From Hymenobacter ruricola (GTDB lineage: Bacteria > Bacteroidota > Bacteroidia > Cytophagales > Hymenobacteraceae): DNA of 64,000 nt. The DNA is taken from positions 310,001-374,000 of the forward strand of contig NZ_JADQDM010000003.1 in the NCBI RefSeq assembly GCF_015694525.1. Direction: 5' to 3'. A model generated the notes under the pieces. That model was not told the origin of the DNA. It did no database searches and was given only the letters and a program-made list of their open reading frames with translations. The translations under genes were made by a program, and so were the position numbers. Shown here in pieces: positions 29,103 to 35,585 of this stretch. Each line of letters begins with the position of its first letter. Within the stretch, counting starts at the first letter, position 1.

Positions 29103-29474
29103 TCAGGCACCAGTCACCGGCGCCGCGTAGTGCGCCCGCACCCGCTGCACCCGGCCCTGGGCATTCAGCTCCATGTATTCGGCGGCGGGCCAGCCGTTGA
29201 TGCTGCGGTAGTAGAGCACCACCGACTGCACGCCGGGCAGCACCTGCTGCAAGGCAAAGTGCAGGTCCGGGTAGCGGGCCAGACCGGTGGCAAAATAGGC
29301 GCGCAGGGTTTCTTTGGTGTGCAGGGCGCCGCTGGCACCCGCGCCGAGCTGCTGAATCAGCGGCGAGCGGAAGTCCAGCTCGTCGGCGTAGTGGGCCATG
29401 ATGCGGTCCAGGTCGTGGGCATTCCAGCTTTCTACCCAGTCGTGGGCAAAGTCGGTGGCTTGTTCTTGGGTCAT
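29103..29474 (-). CDS. SnoaL/NTF2-like family protein
   Basis: This encodes 123 residues from MTQEQATDFAHDWVESWN; a longer reading from 29543 adds a poorly matching N terminus. The pattern WNAHDLDRIMAHYADELDFRSP followed by a strand-rich C terminus (VLYYRSINGWPAAEYMELN) is the standard SnoaL-like cone fold. Members are cyclases, isomerases or unassigned; no catalytic assignment is possible. It lies between the thiolase and the MocR gene on the same strand. Confidence 0.88.
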   Translation of the reverse strand: MTQEQATDFAHDWVESWNAHDLDRIMAHYADELDFRSPLIQQLGAGASGALHTKETLRAYFATGLARYPDLHFALQQVLPGVQSVVLYYRSINGWPAAEYMELNAQGRVQRVRAHYAAPVTGA

Positions 29475-29625: not shown

Positions 29626-30762
29626 TTAGCAACGCTCTAGCACGGTGGCAATGCCCTGCCCGCCCCCAATGCACTGCGTGGCCAGCGCGTAGCGCCCGCC
29701 CGTGCGCCGAAGCAAGCCGGCGGCCTTGCCCGTGATGCGCGCCCCCGTGGCACCGAGCGGATGCCCCAATGCCAGGGCGCCGCCGTCCAGGTTCAGCTTC
29801 TCGGGCGCGATGCCCAGTTCCTGCTGGCAGGCCAGCGCCTGGGTCGCAAACGCCTCGTTGAGCTCCACCACATCCATGTCGGCCAAGCGCAGCCCCGCCC
29901 GGGCCAGGGCCTTGTGCGTGGCCGGAATCGGCCCGAGCCCCATCACCTCCGGGCCCACGCCGGCCACTGCCACGCTTCTTAGCTGCGCCAGGGGCGTGAG
30001 CTGGTGCCGCCGCAGAAAGGCCTCGCTCACCACCAGCACGGCCGCCGCCCCGTCCGTCAGCGGCGAGGAGGTGCCCGCCGTCACGGTGCCATCGGCCGCA
30101 AACGCCGGCTTGAGGCCGGCCAGGCCCGCCGGTGTTGTGGCCGGACGCAGGCAGCCGTCCTGGGTCACCACCGAGCCATCGGATAGCTGCACCGGCACCA
30201 GCTCGTCGGCAAAGGCCCCGGCGGCCACGGCAGCGGCGGCTTTGGCCTGGCTCGCGGTGGCAAACTGTTCCTGAGTTTCCCGGCTGATGCCGTACTGCCG
30301 GGCCACGTTCTCGGCCGTAATGCCCATGGGGGTGTACGTTTCCGGGCGCAATTGCAGCAAGGCCGGGCTGGGGGAAGGGTGCAACCCGCTCTGCGGCACC
30401 TTGGTCATCGATTCCACCCCCAAACACAAAAACGCCTCGCCCGCGCCGGTGGCAATGCTGCCCGCCGCGGCGTGAATGCTCGTCATCGAGGAGCCGCAGA
30501 AGCGGTTGATAGTGGCGCCGGCAATGTGCTGGGGCAGCCCGGCCAGCAAGGCCACGATGCGGGCGAGGTTGTCGCCCTGCTCGCCTTCGGGGTAGGCGCA
30601 GCCCAGCAGCACGTCTTCCAGCTCGGCGGGGTCAAAGGCCTGGCGGGCCAGCAGGCCGCGCACCAGCTGCGCAGCCAACTCGGCCGGTGGCAGGGTCGCA
30701 AACGTGCCTTTGCGGGCAAACTGGAAGGGGGTGCGGGCGAAATCCAGCAAGTAAGCATCCAT
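29626..30762 (-). CDS. acetyl-CoA acetyltransferase / 3-ketoacyl-CoA thiolase
   Basis: This 378-residue thiolase has the acyl-accepting Cys89 in NRFCGSSM, the middle NEAFATQALACQ block, the His in GGALALGHPLGATGAR and the second catalytic Cys in ATQCIGGGQG. It either cleaves 3-ketoacyl-CoA in beta-oxidation or condenses acetyl-CoA. No hydratase/dehydrogenase gene is adjacent, so direction is undecided. A 14-bp palindrome identical to one before the tetR gene sits on its promoter, so the TetR protein encoded just upstream probably represses it. Confidence 0.94.
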   Translation of the reverse strand: MDAYLLDFARTPFQFARKGTFATLPPAELAAQLVRGLLARQAFDPAELEDVLLGCAYPEGEQGDNLARIVALLAGLPQHIAGATINRFCGSSMTSIHAAAGSIATGAGEAFLCLGVESMTKVPQSGLHPSPSPALLQLRPETYTPMGITAENVARQYGISRETQEQFATASQAKAAAAVAAGAFADELVPVQLSDGSVVTQDGCLRPATTPAGLAGLKPAFAADGTVTAGTSSPLTDGAAAVLVVSEAFLRRHQLTPLAQLRSVAVAGVGPEVMGLGPIPATHKALARAGLRLADMDVVELNEAFATQALACQQELGIAPEKLNLDGGALALGHPLGATGARITGKAAGLLRRTGGRYALATQCIGGGQGIATVLERC

Positions 30763-30820: not shown

Positions 30821-30828
30821 CAATATTA
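30821..30828 (-). promoter_or_regulatory. -7 promoter element of the thiolase gene
   Basis: On the minus strand this reads TAATATTG, one mismatch from the Bacteroidota -7 consensus TAnnTTTG. It lies 59 bp upstream of the thiolase ATG and abuts the operator at 30828-30841. Confidence 0.5.
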
Positions 30829-30841
30829 TACCGATTGGTAT
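30828..30841. promoter_or_regulatory. TetR-type operator upstream of the thiolase gene
   Basis: ATACCGATTGGTAT is an interrupted palindrome (ATACC-4-GGTAT). Its reverse complement is exactly the 14-mer at 31483-31496 before the tetR gene. It overlaps the edge of the predicted thiolase -7 element, so binding should block transcription. ATACC-4-GGTAT resembles known TetR-family boxes such as that of NemR. Confidence 0.75.
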
Positions 30842-30860
30842 GTTATTGGGTAAAAAAAAG

Positions 30861-31457
30861 TCAGGCCACCAGTTCGGTTTCAATCAATTGTTCCAGGTGG
30901 TCGAGCACCGTGTACAGCGCCTGGGGGTTCTCGGTGGCTTTGGCCAGGAGCACTCCGCCCTCAATCAGCGCCATTAAAACCGTCGCGTAACGAGTGGCGT
31001 CGGCTTCGGGCTTGAGGTCGCCGGCCTGCTGGCCCGCTTCGATGACGTGGACGAGGTTGCCGTGCCAGCCGCGCAACGTTTCCTGTACCCGCCGCCGCAG
31101 GGGGGAGGCAGGGGCGTCGTCCACTTCCACGGCCGTGTTGAGGATGGGGCAGCCGCCCCGGGCTTGCAGTTCGGCGTAAACCTGGCGGTAGAAGCGCGGT
31201 ACGGCCAGCAGCTTTTCGCGCGCGGGCGCAGTCTTGGGCGCACTGGCGCGCAGGCCGTTGAACACAAACGCGAGGTTGTGCTCAAAGGCGGCCAGCGCCA
31301 CCTCTTCCTTGTTTTCGAAGTTGCCGTAGATGGCCCCTTTGGTCAGGCCAGTGGCGGCCGTCAGGTCGTTTAGCGACGTGCCCGCATAGCCCTGCTTATT
31401 GAAAACAGGGGCCGTTTGCTCGATAATGAACTGGCGGGTGCGCTCGGCTTTAGACAT
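30861..31457 (-). CDS. TetR family transcriptional regulator
   Basis: This encodes 198 residues from MSKAERTRQFIIEQ (an in-frame start at 31469 would add four). The N-terminal helix-turn-helix is GYAGTSLNDLTAATGLTKGAIYGNFENKEEV, which falls in the AcrR/NemR-like branch. The C-terminal ligand domain (residues 60-198) has CPILNTAVEVDD, seen in TetR_C regulators with a conserved Cys. It is followed by the thiolase gene on the same strand, 98 bp on. Identical operators at both promoters predict autorepression and thiolase repression; the inducer is unknown. Confidence 0.94.
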   Translation of the reverse strand: MSKAERTRQFIIEQTAPVFNKQGYAGTSLNDLTAATGLTKGAIYGNFENKEEVALAAFEHNLAFVFNGLRASAPKTAPAREKLLAVPRFYRQVYAELQARGGCPILNTAVEVDDAPASPLRRRVQETLRGWHGNLVHVIEAGQQAGDLKPEADATRYATVLMALIEGGVLLAKATENPQALYTVLDHLEQLIETELVA

Positions 31458-31477
31458 AGGTGCTGACAAAACTACGG

Positions 31478-31485
31478 CAAATATA
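31478..31485 (-). promoter_or_regulatory. -7 promoter element of the tetR gene
   Basis: The minus strand reads TATATTTG, an exact match to the Bacteroidota -7 consensus TAnnTTTG, 20 bp upstream of the tetR ATG. Its upstream edge overlaps the operator at 31483-31496 by three bases. Confidence 0.7.
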
Positions 31486-31496
31486 CCAATCGGTAT
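31483..31496. promoter_or_regulatory. TetR-type autoregulatory operator
   Basis: ATACCAATCGGTAT is the exact reverse complement of the 14-mer at 30828-30841. It overlaps the tetR -7 element and lies 25 bp before the tetR start codon, the usual place for autorepression. Confidence 0.75.
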
Positions 31497-31667: not shown

Positions 31668-34600
31668 CTATTCTACCACCAAGCGTAAGGCCTGGCTACC
31701 CACGCGCACCACGTACACGCCGGTAGCCAACCCCTGCGGCAGCGTCAGAGCGGCCTTGCCGGCGGCATCGGCGGTAGCGGCCAGCACCTGCCGGCCCAGG
31801 GCATCAAACACCGTGACGGCGTCGTCGGGCTGCGCGCCCGTGAGGGTAGTAGCCTGGGTGACTGGGTTGGGAAACAGGGCCAGTTTGGCTTGGGGGCCCA
31901 CCGCCACGGTGCGCACGGGCGAGTAGCTGGCCGTGCCATCCAGGTCCACTTGGCGCAGGCGGTAGTACACCAGCGGGGCGGCGTAGCGGGCCACGTGCTC
32001 ATCGACGAAAGCATACGTGTGCGCTTGGGTGCTGCTGCCGGCTCCGGCCACCGTGCCCAGGCGGGCGAAGCGGGCCCCGTCGGCGCTGCTTTCCACCTCG
32101 AAGCCAGCGTTGTTGAGTTCGCTGGCTGTCGTCCATTGCAGCAGGGCGCCCGTGCCCTGGGCCTGGGCCGTGAAGGTGGCCAGCTCCACGGGCAACGGGT
32201 TGGCGGCGTTGCCCAGGGTCCAGAGTGAGAAGTTGCTGATGCCGCTCAGGCTGGCGGTGTGGGTGGTGGGCTGGCTGCCGCTGGCGGCGGTAGTGGCCAA
32301 GGTGGCGGCCTTCTGTGGTTGCCAAGTGGTGCCCGCGTTATCGCTCTTGAACAGGCGCAGGTTGGCGGCAGCAATGCCATTGCGCTCGTCGTCGCGCACG
32401 GTCAGGGCCAGGGCCACGTTCAGGCCGGTCCTGACGGCGGGCTGGATGTCGAACACGCGCTTGACGCTCTGGCTGGTGCCCGCGCCGGTGCGGGCCGTGC
32501 CGGTGGTGCGCACCACCAGGGTGCTGCCAGGCAGGCGGCTGCTGCTGGGCGTGAGCGTGAGGCCCAGCCCGCCGAAGGTCTGGGTGGTGCCGGCCGTGCT
32601 CAGGTTGCGCGTCGTTTGCACCGTGCCCGTGGCGTAGCCGTCAGCATCTTCGCTGAGCGTGGCGGTGGGGCCCAGCGTCAGGGCATTGCTGCCGGTGCGC
32701 AGCACGCCGCCGGTGAGCGCGACGGCGCTGGTGGCCGTGACGTCGTCCGTGAGCGTGAGCCCCGCGCCGTTGCTGAGGGTGAGCGCGCGCACGGTGGCCG
32801 GCAGGCCCGTGCCCGTGACTTGCGCCGCCGACCCGTTGTAGGTGTAGCGCGCGTCGGCGTCGAAGGTGCGGGTGCCCGTGACCTGCACCGCCCCGGTGCT
32901 GCCGCTGCTGCTGATGCCCTGCGCCGAGCAGATGCCCAGCGTGCCGCCCGCTGCCAGCGTGAAGCTGCCCGGGCCGCTGAGCACGAAGCAGCCGTCGTTG
33001 AGCACGCCGCCGCTTTGCACCGTGGTGCTGCCGGCCACGCTGATGGGGCTGGCCAGCGTGCCCACGCCGGTGCTGGTGACGGTGAAGGAGGTGTAGAGGG
33101 CGTCGGCGTAAATGCCTGTGGTCGTGCTCACCACCAAATCCAGCCCGCCCAGCAGCACCCCGGCCGTGCCGCTGTTGCTGTTGGCCGTGAGCAGGTCCGG
33201 CTTGCCGTCGCCGTTCACGTCGGCCACCGCGATGTCGAAGGGCAGGCTGTTGGTGCCGGTGCTATAGGTGGCGGCGGCCCCGAAGCTGCCCGTGCCCGTG
33301 CCCAGCAGCACGCTGGCCGTGCCGCTGCTGCTGTTGGCCGTGAGCAAATCCAACTGGCCGTCACCGTTCACATCGGCCACCGCGAGGGCGTAGGTAGAAC
33401 TACCGCCCGTGCTGTAGGTGCTCACGGCCCCGAAGCTGCCCGTGCCCGTGCCCAGCAGTACCCCGGCCGTACCGTTGCCCGCGTTGACCGTGAGCGCATC
33501 CAGCTGGCCGTCGCCGTTCACGTCGGCCACGGCAATATCGTAGGGCGTGCTGCCGCTGCCCGTGCTAAAGGCGGTAACGGCTCCGAAGCTGCCCGTGCCC
33601 GTGCCCAGCAGCACCCCCACCGTGTTGTTGAAGAGGTTGGCCGTGAGCACGTCCAGCTTGCCGTCGCCGTTCACGTCGGCCACCGCCAGGTCGCGCGGCT
33701 GGCTGTTACTGCCCGTGCTGTAGGTGCTCACGGCCCCGAAGCTGCCCGTGCCCGTGCCCAGCAGCACCCCCACCGCGTCGGTGCCGTAGTTGGCCGTGAG
33801 CACATCCGGCTTGCCGTCGCCGTTCACGTCGGCCACCGCGAGGCCGCGGGGAGCGCTGTTGCCGCCCGCGCTAAAAGTGGTAGCGGCCCCGAAGCTGCCC
33901 GTGCCCGTGCCCAGCAGCACCCCCACCGAGTTGCTGCTAATGCTATTGTTAGCCGTGAGCAAATCTGGCTTGCCGTCGCCGTTCACGTCGGCCACCGCGA
34001 TGGCGCGGGGCAGGCCGCCGCCCGAGGAAAAGGTGGTGACGGCCCCGAAGCTGCCCGTGCCCGTGCCCAGCAGCACCCCGGCCGTGCTGTTGCCGTAGTT
34101 GGCCGTGAGCAGGTCTAGCTTGCCGTCGCCGTTCACGTCGGCCACAGCCACGCCGCGGGGACTGTTGCCGCTGCTCGTATTCGTCACCGGCAGGAAGGTG
34201 CGCGTGGCCAGCACGGGCGTGGTGTTGAGCAGCACCCCGGTCGTGTAGGCGCTGTTGTTGGCCGTGAGCAGGTCCAGCCGGCCGTCACCGTCTACGTCGG
34301 CCGCCACAACGCCCCAGGGCTCACTGCCGCTGCCCGTGCTGAGGGCAGTGACGGGACCGAAGGTGCCCGTGCCCGTGCCCAGCAGCATCCCCACCGTGTC
34401 GCTGCCCGCGTTGGCCGTGAGCAGGTCCAGCTTGCCGTCGTTGTTCACGTCGCCCACGGCAATGTCGAAGGGTATGCTATTGGGGCCCGCGCTGTAGGTC
34501 CTCACGGACCCGAAGCTGCCGGTGCCCGTGCCCAGCAGCACGCCGGCCTTGTTAGTGTCGGAGTTGGCCGTGAGCAGGTCGGGGTTGCCGTCGCCGTTCA

Positions 34601-35372
34601 CGTCGGCCACGGCCACGCCGTAGGGTGTGCTGCCGCTGCCCGTGCCGAAGGCAGTGAAGGGGCCAAAAGTGCCGGTGCCCGTGCCCAGCAGCACCGCCAC
34701 CGTGTCGTCGCCATTGTTGGCGGTGATAATGTCCGGCTGGCCGTCGCCATTCACGTCGGCCACGGCGATGCCGCAGGGCTGGCTGCCCGTGCCGAAGGTA
34801 GTGACGGCCCCGAAGCTGCCGGTGCCCGTGCCCAGCAGCACCCCCACCGTGTTGCTGCCGATGTTGGCCGTCAGTAGGTCGGGCTTGCCATCGCCGTTCA
34901 CGTCGGCCACGGCGATGCCGCGGGGCTCGCTGAAGGTGCCCGTGCTGAAGGTGCTGGCGGTGCCAAAGGTGCCGGTGCCGGTGCCCAGCAGCACGCTGGC
35001 CGTGCTTTTGCCGTTGTTGGCGGTGAGCAGGTCGGGGTTGCCGTCGCCGTTCACGTCGGCCACCGCAATGGCGCGGGGCAGGCTGCCGACGCCCGTGCTG
35101 AAGGTGCTGGCGGTGCCGAAGGTGCCCGTGCCAGTACCGAGCTGCACCCCGGCCGTGCTGGTGCCGTAGTTGGCCGTGAGCAGGTCGGGGTTGCCGTCGC
35201 CGTTCACGTCGGCCACGGCGATGCCGCGAGGCCGGCTGCTGCCGCCCGTGCTAAAGGCAGTGACGGCCCCGAAGGTGGCGGGCCGCTGGGCCTGGGCGGT
35301 GCCGGCCAGCGCCAGCAGCAGGGGCAGCACCCGCAGCGGGCGGCGTAGCAGGGAAACAAAAGTCTGGTTCAT
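31668..35372 (-). CDS. FG-GAP (VCBS) repeat protein with T9SS C-terminal sorting domain
   Basis: This 1234-residue protein has a signal peptide (LLLALAGTAQA) and 14 tandem FG-GAP blades, each containing AVADVNGDG.PDLLTAN and VLLGTGTGSFG at a period near 53 residues (about 160 bp). The D.NGDG.D loops are calcium-binding. A beta-helix-like region follows, then a segment beginning FTAQAQGTGALLQW, and the last 70 residues form a type IX secretion sorting domain (FPNPVTQATTL, GVYVVRVG). It is predicted to be exported and cell-surface anchored or released. Start chosen at the ATG at 35372, where the signal peptide begins; earlier in-frame starts exist. Confidence 0.93.
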   Translation of the reverse strand: MNQTFVSLLRRPLRVLPLLLALAGTAQAQRPATFGAVTAFSTGGSSRPRGIAVADVNGDGNPDLLTANYGTSTAGVQLGTGTGTFGTASTFSTGVGSLPRAIAVADVNGDGNPDLLTANNGKSTASVLLGTGTGTFGTASTFSTGTFSEPRGIAVADVNGDGKPDLLTANIGSNTVGVLLGTGTGSFGAVTTFGTGSQPCGIAVADVNGDGQPDIITANNGDDTVAVLLGTGTGTFGPFTAFGTGSGSTPYGVAVADVNGDGNPDLLTANSDTNKAGVLLGTGTGSFGSVRTYSAGPNSIPFDIAVGDVNNDGKLDLLTANAGSDTVGMLLGTGTGTFGPVTALSTGSGSEPWGVVAADVDGDGRLDLLTANNSAYTTGVLLNTTPVLATRTFLPVTNTSSGNSPRGVAVADVNGDGKLDLLTANYGNSTAGVLLGTGTGSFGAVTTFSSGGGLPRAIAVADVNGDGKPDLLTANNSISSNSVGVLLGTGTGSFGAATTFSAGGNSAPRGLAVADVNGDGKPDVLTANYGTDAVGVLLGTGTGSFGAVSTYSTGSNSQPRDLAVADVNGDGKLDVLTANLFNNTVGVLLGTGTGSFGAVTAFSTGSGSTPYDIAVADVNGDGQLDALTVNAGNGTAGVLLGTGTGSFGAVSTYSTGGSSTYALAVADVNGDGQLDLLTANSSSGTASVLLGTGTGSFGAAATYSTGTNSLPFDIAVADVNGDGKPDLLTANSNSGTAGVLLGGLDLVVSTTTGIYADALYTSFTVTSTGVGTLASPISVAGSTTVQSGGVLNDGCFVLSGPGSFTLAAGGTLGICSAQGISSSGSTGAVQVTGTRTFDADARYTYNGSAAQVTGTGLPATVRALTLSNGAGLTLTDDVTATSAVALTGGVLRTGSNALTLGPTATLSEDADGYATGTVQTTRNLSTAGTTQTFGGLGLTLTPSSSRLPGSTLVVRTTGTARTGAGTSQSVKRVFDIQPAVRTGLNVALALTVRDDERNGIAAANLRLFKSDNAGTTWQPQKAATLATTAASGSQPTTHTASLSGISNFSLWTLGNAANPLPVELATFTAQAQGTGALLQWTTASELNNAGFEVESSADGARFARLGTVAGAGSSTQAHTYAFVDEHVARYAAPLVYYRLRQVDLDGTASYSPVRTVAVGPQAKLALFPNPVTQATTLTGAQPDDAVTVFDALGRQVLAATADAAGKAALTLPQGLATGVYVVRVGSQALRLVVE

Positions 35373-35585
35373 ACGGGTGTTGCGAATTGCCAAGGCGGCC
35401 CGCAACGTGCGGTACAGGTTTAGCATGATTTTTTGAAATACAATAAGATATTTCTGGATGGAGCTCAGACAGAAGCGCCGCACAAAAGTGCCGCAGTCCG
35501 GTTCGGCCTCCAACAAAACTCCATCCCCCAAATGGGGGAGGGGCGCGGCTGGCGTGGTGGCGCCGCCGCGGCGGTACTTTGCGCC

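Follow-up and report, generated by a model that had tools for sequence, protein, structure and literature searches.

We propose, with a probability of about 87%, that two identical 14-mers flanking a tetR gene in Hymenobacter ruricola are operators of the adjacent TetR_C_13 repressor, which would block the promoters of both tetR and a neighbouring thiolase gene until an inducer acts. This TetR switch is very probably real, conserved and autoregulated, ordinary in kind and built on a new regulator-operator pair. What makes it more interesting is the apparent exchange of its targets. To our knowledge, few TetR operators have been defined in Bacteroidota, and this one forms with its regulator a testable pair that is maintained in many genera of the phylum. 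Coordinates refer to the window, the whole 64,000-nucleotide stretch of DNA that was analysed.

Two identical sites on the tetR and thiolase promoters

The 14-mer ATACCAATCGGTAT was found exactly where a sequence-only reading had placed it, once on the forward and once on the reverse strand (Table 1). The two sites flank the tetR gene, and the second lies upstream of the thiolase gene. The 14-mer is an imperfect palindrome, with 12 of 14 bases symmetric, and a search of the window at up to two mismatches returned four rows, which correspond to both places on either strand; shuffled sequences averaged 0.04. In the complete genome (5,964,541 bases, 5.96 Mb) the pattern ATACCN4GGTAT was present at two places, both at this locus, and the reversed control pattern at one. 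When one mismatch was allowed, ATACCRNNYGGTAT occurred at 9 places in this genome compared with 8 for the control, indicating that its 7 extra places are background. A larger trans regulon in this genome was rejected on this count.

Table 1. Features of the tetR-thiolase locus, in window coordinates.
Feature	Position	Strand	Remarks
SnoaL_2-like protein, ATG at 29474, downstream of thiolase	29103..29474	-	
Thiolase, acetyl-CoA C-acyltransferase subfamily TIGR01930, 378 aa, predicted target	29626..30762	-	
Predicted -7 region, thiolase promoter	30821..30830	-	TATAATATTG; inferred from sequence
Predicted operator O2, thiolase promoter	30828..30841	-	ATACCAATCGGTAT on the thiolase strand; exact match
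Predicted -33 position, thiolase promoter	30851..30854	-	TTTA ending a T-run
tetR, TetR_N and TetR_C_13 repressor, 198 aa	30861..31457	-	Pfam
Predicted -7 element of tetR	31478..31485	-	TATATTTG; first three bases are the last three of O1
Predicted operator O1, tetR promoter	31483..31496	-	ATACCGATTGGTAT on the tetR strand; exact match

A chance repeat had been called very unlikely at the outset. The rival explanation is that the repeated 14-mer arose by chance, or is a generic promoter motif without relation to TetR, and the looser ATACCN4GGTAT pattern, which is found 0 to 7 times per genome and in 100 of 120 genomes of the genus, indicates that single sites are indeed common and arise by chance. 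However, chance would not be expected to place two sites at one locus, on two promoters, and the site is tied to this TetR in promoter register and is absent from the promoters of paralogous tetR genes and of presumed housekeeping FabF genes. We regard this explanation as extremely improbable and rejected it on the basis of genome exclusivity, co-occurrence in the genus and the phylum, and the paralog promoters that lack the site; the exclusivity and co-occurrence results support the initial assessment.

Both sites had also been reported to overlap a -7 element. This held for tetR, where GGTAT of the operator runs into ATTTG to form TATATTTG, a perfect match to the Bacteroides -7 consensus TAnnTTTG as quoted in PMC7366714; TAnnTTTG at operator position 12 was found on the tetR side of 54 of 72 Bacteroidota loci. 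On the thiolase side the overlapping TAATATTG (30821-30828) differs from TAnnTTTG at one base, and none of 66 target-side promoters had TAnnTTTG at position 12, indicating that the -7 element of the target side is less canonical. At 31 of the 66 target-side sites a TTTG begins 13 bases ahead of the operator, often ending a T-run, and this offset leaves 20 bases up to the operator TAT; the TTTG or T-run is thereby positioned where a -33 element would be expected. In 9/66 target promoters a perfect TAnnTTTG starts later, at operator positions 14-28 and mostly 23-28, and a downstream TAnnTTTG was seen in 8 of 16 FabF promoters. The operator register therefore differs among targets, above all at several FabF promoters.

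The operator centre was assessed in 71 tetR-side and 66 target-side sites, its letters having been left free by the search. A purine occupied position 6 in 135/137 sites and a pyrimidine position 9 in 134/137. Most of the outer operator letters were fixed by the search, so their conservation proves nothing. Of 49 loci with an exact GGTATATTTG, 7 lacked an in-frame ATG, and distances to the start codon were counted at the other 42. Among these tetR promoters (L031-L110) the ATG followed the -7 element within 10 nt in 39/42 loci, and at exactly 4 nt in 28, suggesting a probably leaderless mRNA for the repressor in many Bacteroidota. The corresponding distance for tetR in the window is 20 nt.

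This promoter register suggests how repression works. Each operator in the window appears to sit in the -33/-7 spacer, with its last bases beginning the -7 element, which argues that a bound repressor would block RNA polymerase. We infer that the TetR_C_13 repressor binds ATACC-RWWY-GGTAT as a dimer, and that the bound dimer would exclude RNA polymerase at both tetR and thiolase. A small molecule acting on or near Cys103, for which a thiol-reactive compound is the leading candidate, would then inactivate the repressor, and tetR and thiolase would be induced together.

Co-occurrence of the operator with the repressor

The repressor belongs to the TetR family (PF00440, 43.6 bits with a cut-off of 24; PF16925, 85.3 with a cut-off of 27) and matched 15 NCBIfam models, all of them below their cut-offs, including the AcrR model (40.9 bits vs 271, far below) and the ScbR autoregulator receptor model NF041196 (85 bits vs 150); it is therefore a regulator without an assigned name. 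An AlphaFold2 model (mean pLDDT 92.0, pTM 0.85) matched TetR structures across residues 1-198, most closely 3eup (Z 24.8) and 3qbm (Z 24.6), followed by a broad TetR group that includes CifR (Z 19.4) and NemR (19.2). These matches of a predicted structure establish the fold only. By alignment, the recognition-helix region lies at about residues 38-50, and it is invariant in all 93 ortholog rows, which include several genomes twice. The word YGNFENKE from this helix was used in the Bacteroidota protein search, and 79 of the 80 resulting loci contain it, so the invariance is partly selected and biased. The 12 genus orthologs were found without this word and all read LTKGAIYGNFENK; the 16 paralogs differ.

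The sequence-only reading had proposed that the site should co-vary with the regulator, and this was observed both in the genus and among Bacteroidota loci. Of 120 Hymenobacter genomes, 12 (that of H. ruricola included) encode an ortholog, with 67-100% identity, and each of the 12 carries one site before tetR and another before the downstream gene, 23 of these 24 sites being exact. At 16 loci of distant paralogs (28-42% identity) no site was present within 120 bp upstream at up to one mismatch. The nearest paralogs (L015 and L016, from G098 and G113; 41-42% identity) have an operator-like upstream stretch with 2 mismatches, which perhaps reflects a related but shifted specificity.

A 19-mer comprising the operator and the -7 element was found at up to one mismatch in 11/12 ortholog genomes vs 1/108 others, and at up to two mismatches in 12/12 vs 29/108. 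A different repeated site, ACACCAATTGGTGTATTTG, explains 7 of these 29 genomes. In three stretches (L163, L164 and L165, from G054, G092 and G018) ACACCAATTGGTGTATTTG lies on small contigs near ORFs that we labelled by eye as replication- or mobilisation-like, and none of the three contains a match to this TetR; ACACCAATTGGTGTATTTG is perhaps a plasmid control element.

Across Bacteroidota, we examined the best 80 of 390 loci from a short-peptide protein search, with relatives 42-89% identical. The operator sequence was no part of either ortholog search. A site was present within 120 bp upstream of tetR in 61 of these best 80 loci as an exact match and in 72/80 at up to one mismatch; 29 control permutations of the arms gave no exact match and at most 2/80 loci at up to one mismatch. 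Of the eight loci without a tetR-side site, three (L050, L071 and L110) have tetR downstream of a fabF fronted by the site, which in L071 precedes DUF2798-fabF, and three others (L078, L089 and L097) have the site at a convergent fabF promoter. At L049 and L069 there was no exact site in the stretch examined and none at up to one mismatch upstream of tetR. The exact 19-mer had 5 matches in 3 of 296 phylum genomes, that of H. ruricola included, and each was directly upstream of a TetR relative (the repressor itself, or proteins 40-46% identical); two of the 5 come from a single palindromic site that matches on either strand.

At the level of sequence conservation, a predicted palindromic operator is thus found at both the regulator's own promoter and the target promoter, and these comparisons support the proposal that this TetR regulates itself and the thiolase through identical operators. 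Our search of open-access PMC for this operator or regulator found no paper.

Exchangeable predicted targets

The switch had been described as a thiolase switch, which holds in this genome and is not supported as the regulator's conserved function, a thiolase being the nearest recognised downstream gene in only 10 of 85 orthologs. For the remainder this gene was an exporter (23), FabF (15), an SDR (9), a thioesterase (4, with a DUF2798 match in between in L052) or an aldo-keto reductase (3), and 21 had none. On a quick tree with many open forks, with each target labelled by nearness within 2.2 kb irrespective of the operator, the target label requires 28 changes, and thiolase versus other requires 4. 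Judged by these comparisons, the repressor persists together with its operator, and the adjacent predicted target is swapped between a DHA2 exporter, an SDR, a second FabF-type synthase, a thioesterase and thiolases. In this lineage the exchangeable target takes the form of the thiolase.

The linked thiolases fall into three to four subfamilies by NCBIfam best match. The orthologous enzymes of H. ruricola, H. montanus and G016 are FadA-like; this is a label only, since the H. ruricola thiolase is below the cut-off of the FadA equivalog TIGR02445 (364.5 vs 591), and it passes TIGR01930 (428.3 vs 240.55). PhaA/AtoB-like enzymes are found in L056, L073 and as the second thiolase of L094, with L061 assigned by similarity, and the first thiolase of L094 is 3-oxoadipyl-CoA-thiolase-like. 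PRK09268 thiolases are found in L085 and L087, the sole ones above a specific cut-off, with L098 assigned by similarity. The three thiolase genomes of the H. ruricola clade (support 99) are placed among relatives with exporter and FabF, and in two genomes (G042 and G016) a FabF gene comes after the thiolase.

We rejected the possibility that the thiolase had recently been duplicated from another copy, because the other three thiolases found in the genome are only 39-55% identical to it, one of them over partial length. No close copy was found in G105, G019 or G015, where the best matches were 45-52% identical. The 45 bases before the thiolase operator, a stretch that takes in the end of tetR, are identical without gaps at 40/45 positions to those of the L004 thiolase, at 38-39/45 to those upstream of the exporter in L008, L009 and L010, and at 14-33/45 to seven further loci, not all of which aligned in register. 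A gap of 151 bp separates the thiolase from the SnoaL_2 gene, and the other window neighbours scanned encode MocR-like and DinB proteins. Upstream of tetR, a 1287-aa ORF (31668-35531, reverse strand) contains many ADVNGDGKPDLLTAN-type repeats that resemble FG-GAP/VCBS repeats by eye.

Eight Dyadobacter loci (L042-L048 and L057) keep the tetR site, have differing neighbours and have no recognised target, indicating that autoregulation is better supported than any single target. In Mucilaginibacter-type loci (such as L063, L067 and L091) two operators about 64-99 bp apart precede the exporter, and most have one operator at tetR. In L012 (G118) the exporter match of the module is short and FabF is in two pieces, suggesting a decaying module.

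The two linked (module) FabFs that we scanned scored above the FabF cut-off. The catalytic His is followed by Ala in each of the 34 aligned module copies (NAHATST/NTHATST type) and in 3 unlinked extra copies, and by Gly in all 20 presumed housekeeping copies, which form one clade at 100. The module copies do not form one clade and require 4 changes on the tree. The Ala-type paralog group in Bacteroidota (L031-L110, L168-L190) is mostly found within this module. In the stretches examined upstream of the 20 presumed housekeeping and 3 unlinked Ala-type genes, there was no operator at up to one mismatch. We found one FabF copy in H. ruricola, of the housekeeping type, and two each in G042 and G016.

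Candidate signals and comparison with known systems

Cys103 of the repressor is invariant in 93/93 ortholog rows and is also present in 16/16 paralogs, so it is not specific to this repressor group. Lys173 is conserved as K in 71 of the 93 rows and replaced by R in 16. Cys103 and Lys173 align with Cys106 and Lys175 of E. coli NemR. Of the two signals suggested at the outset, an acyl-CoA or a reactive electrophile, the equivalence of the two cysteines leans towards the electrophile. Because the invariant Cys aligns with NemR Cys106 and an inverted repeat upstream of nemR shares the ACC-N4-GGT geometry, a thiol-reactive signal is our first guess from the sequence; this is a judgement that we would put at slightly less than even odds, with acyl-CoA or drug ligands close behind.

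An acyl-CoA sensor would bind a CoA thioester, as in TetRs of the FadR or AibR type, and induce enzymes that consume acyl chains. This would accord with adjacent targets that comprise thiolases of several subfamilies, thioesterase, SDR and FabF, and with structural matches to B. subtilis FadR with stearoyl-CoA (Z 17.2) and AibR with isovaleryl-CoA (16.4). However, such a fold match is general to TetR, the commonest nearest target is a DHA2/EmrB exporter (23 of the 85 tree rows), and the repressor scores well below the FadR model (38.7 bits vs 200) and the AcuR equivalog NF051457 (56.8 bits vs 247). We consider this signal unlikely.

About equally unlikely in our estimation is a drug or natural-product sensor with an aromatic or antibiotic ligand, comparable to the flavonoid systems QdoR (YxaF)/LmrA, in which the ligand would be exported by DHA2 or inactivated by SDR or aldo-keto reductase. 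The model for the LmrA/YxaF-like C-terminal domain, PF21993, matches the repressor above its cut-off (48.4 vs 27), a match that is not specific because PF16925 scores higher and the BetI-type PF13977 also passes (34.7 vs 27). QdoR has one operator of its own and two at its target, according to PMC8481877, and the Mucilaginibacter-type loci are alike in having one at tetR and two at the exporter. Against such a sensor, YxaF has no Cys at the position of Cys103 in the profile alignment, and thiolase, FabF and thioesterase do not appear to be obvious flavonoid detoxifiers.

More doubtful still is a wider reading in which this system is a Bacteroidota-wide defence regulon of exchangeable cassettes against thiol-reactive inhibitors of condensing enzymes, inducing a pump and spare Cys-nucleophile enzymes. 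The invariant-Cys repressor would sense the compound, and the spare thiolase-superfamily enzymes would be the Ala-type FabF paralog or thiolases that several subfamilies had each supplied in independent recruitments; the locus in the window would be a reduced version in which the thiolase alone is kept.

More generally, the locus is a natural example of a repressor and operator that persist as their neighbouring gene is replaced, and it helps in asking which signal pumps, FabF and thiolases have in common. Once its inducer is known, this small, specific and autoregulated operator could serve as an inducible-expression part.

Among solved structures, the closest to the repressor are 3eup, a TetR of Cytophaga hutchinsonii, and 3qbm, Caur_2221 of Chloroflexus (173.7 and 125.5 bits), both of which have a GGCP motif in common with it and PDB titles that give no function. 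The thiol-reactive signal that we favour draws on E. coli NemR, which shares the TetR-family fold (4yze, Z 19.2) at about 24% identity. The region upstream of nemR contains, in the E. coli sequence itself, the inverted repeat TAGACC-GACT-GGTCTA, which we take to be the site bound by NemR. This repeat has the same ACC-N4-GGT geometry and purine-N-N-pyrimidine centre as the operator here. However, its arms differ (AGACC vs ATACC), so the operators are not identical, and no NEM reductase or glyoxalase, as encoded by the nemA/gloA genes of NemR, was found among the neighbours examined here. NemR is autoregulated (PMC13178969). A Cys106-Lys175 sulfenamide has been proposed for its oxidation, and a NemR-based sensor did not require the Lys (PMC8748444).

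The C-terminal domain model PF21993 relates the repressor to B. subtilis QdoR (YxaF) and LmrA, and it differs from YxaF in having Cys103. The regulon of QdoR and LmrA includes an MFS pump. Their operators stand at regulator and target promoters, as here (PMC8481877). AltR of Pantoea ananatis differs from this repressor in its operator, CAATCTAC-N6-GTAGATTG, and in its target genes. As described in PMC13178969, AltR is a recent precedent, a NemR-like autoregulated TetR with one box in its own promoter and another within the gene cluster under its control, the paper leaving open whether AltR binds this second box directly; it has one critical Cys, Cys100, and a box that overlaps the predicted -10 element.
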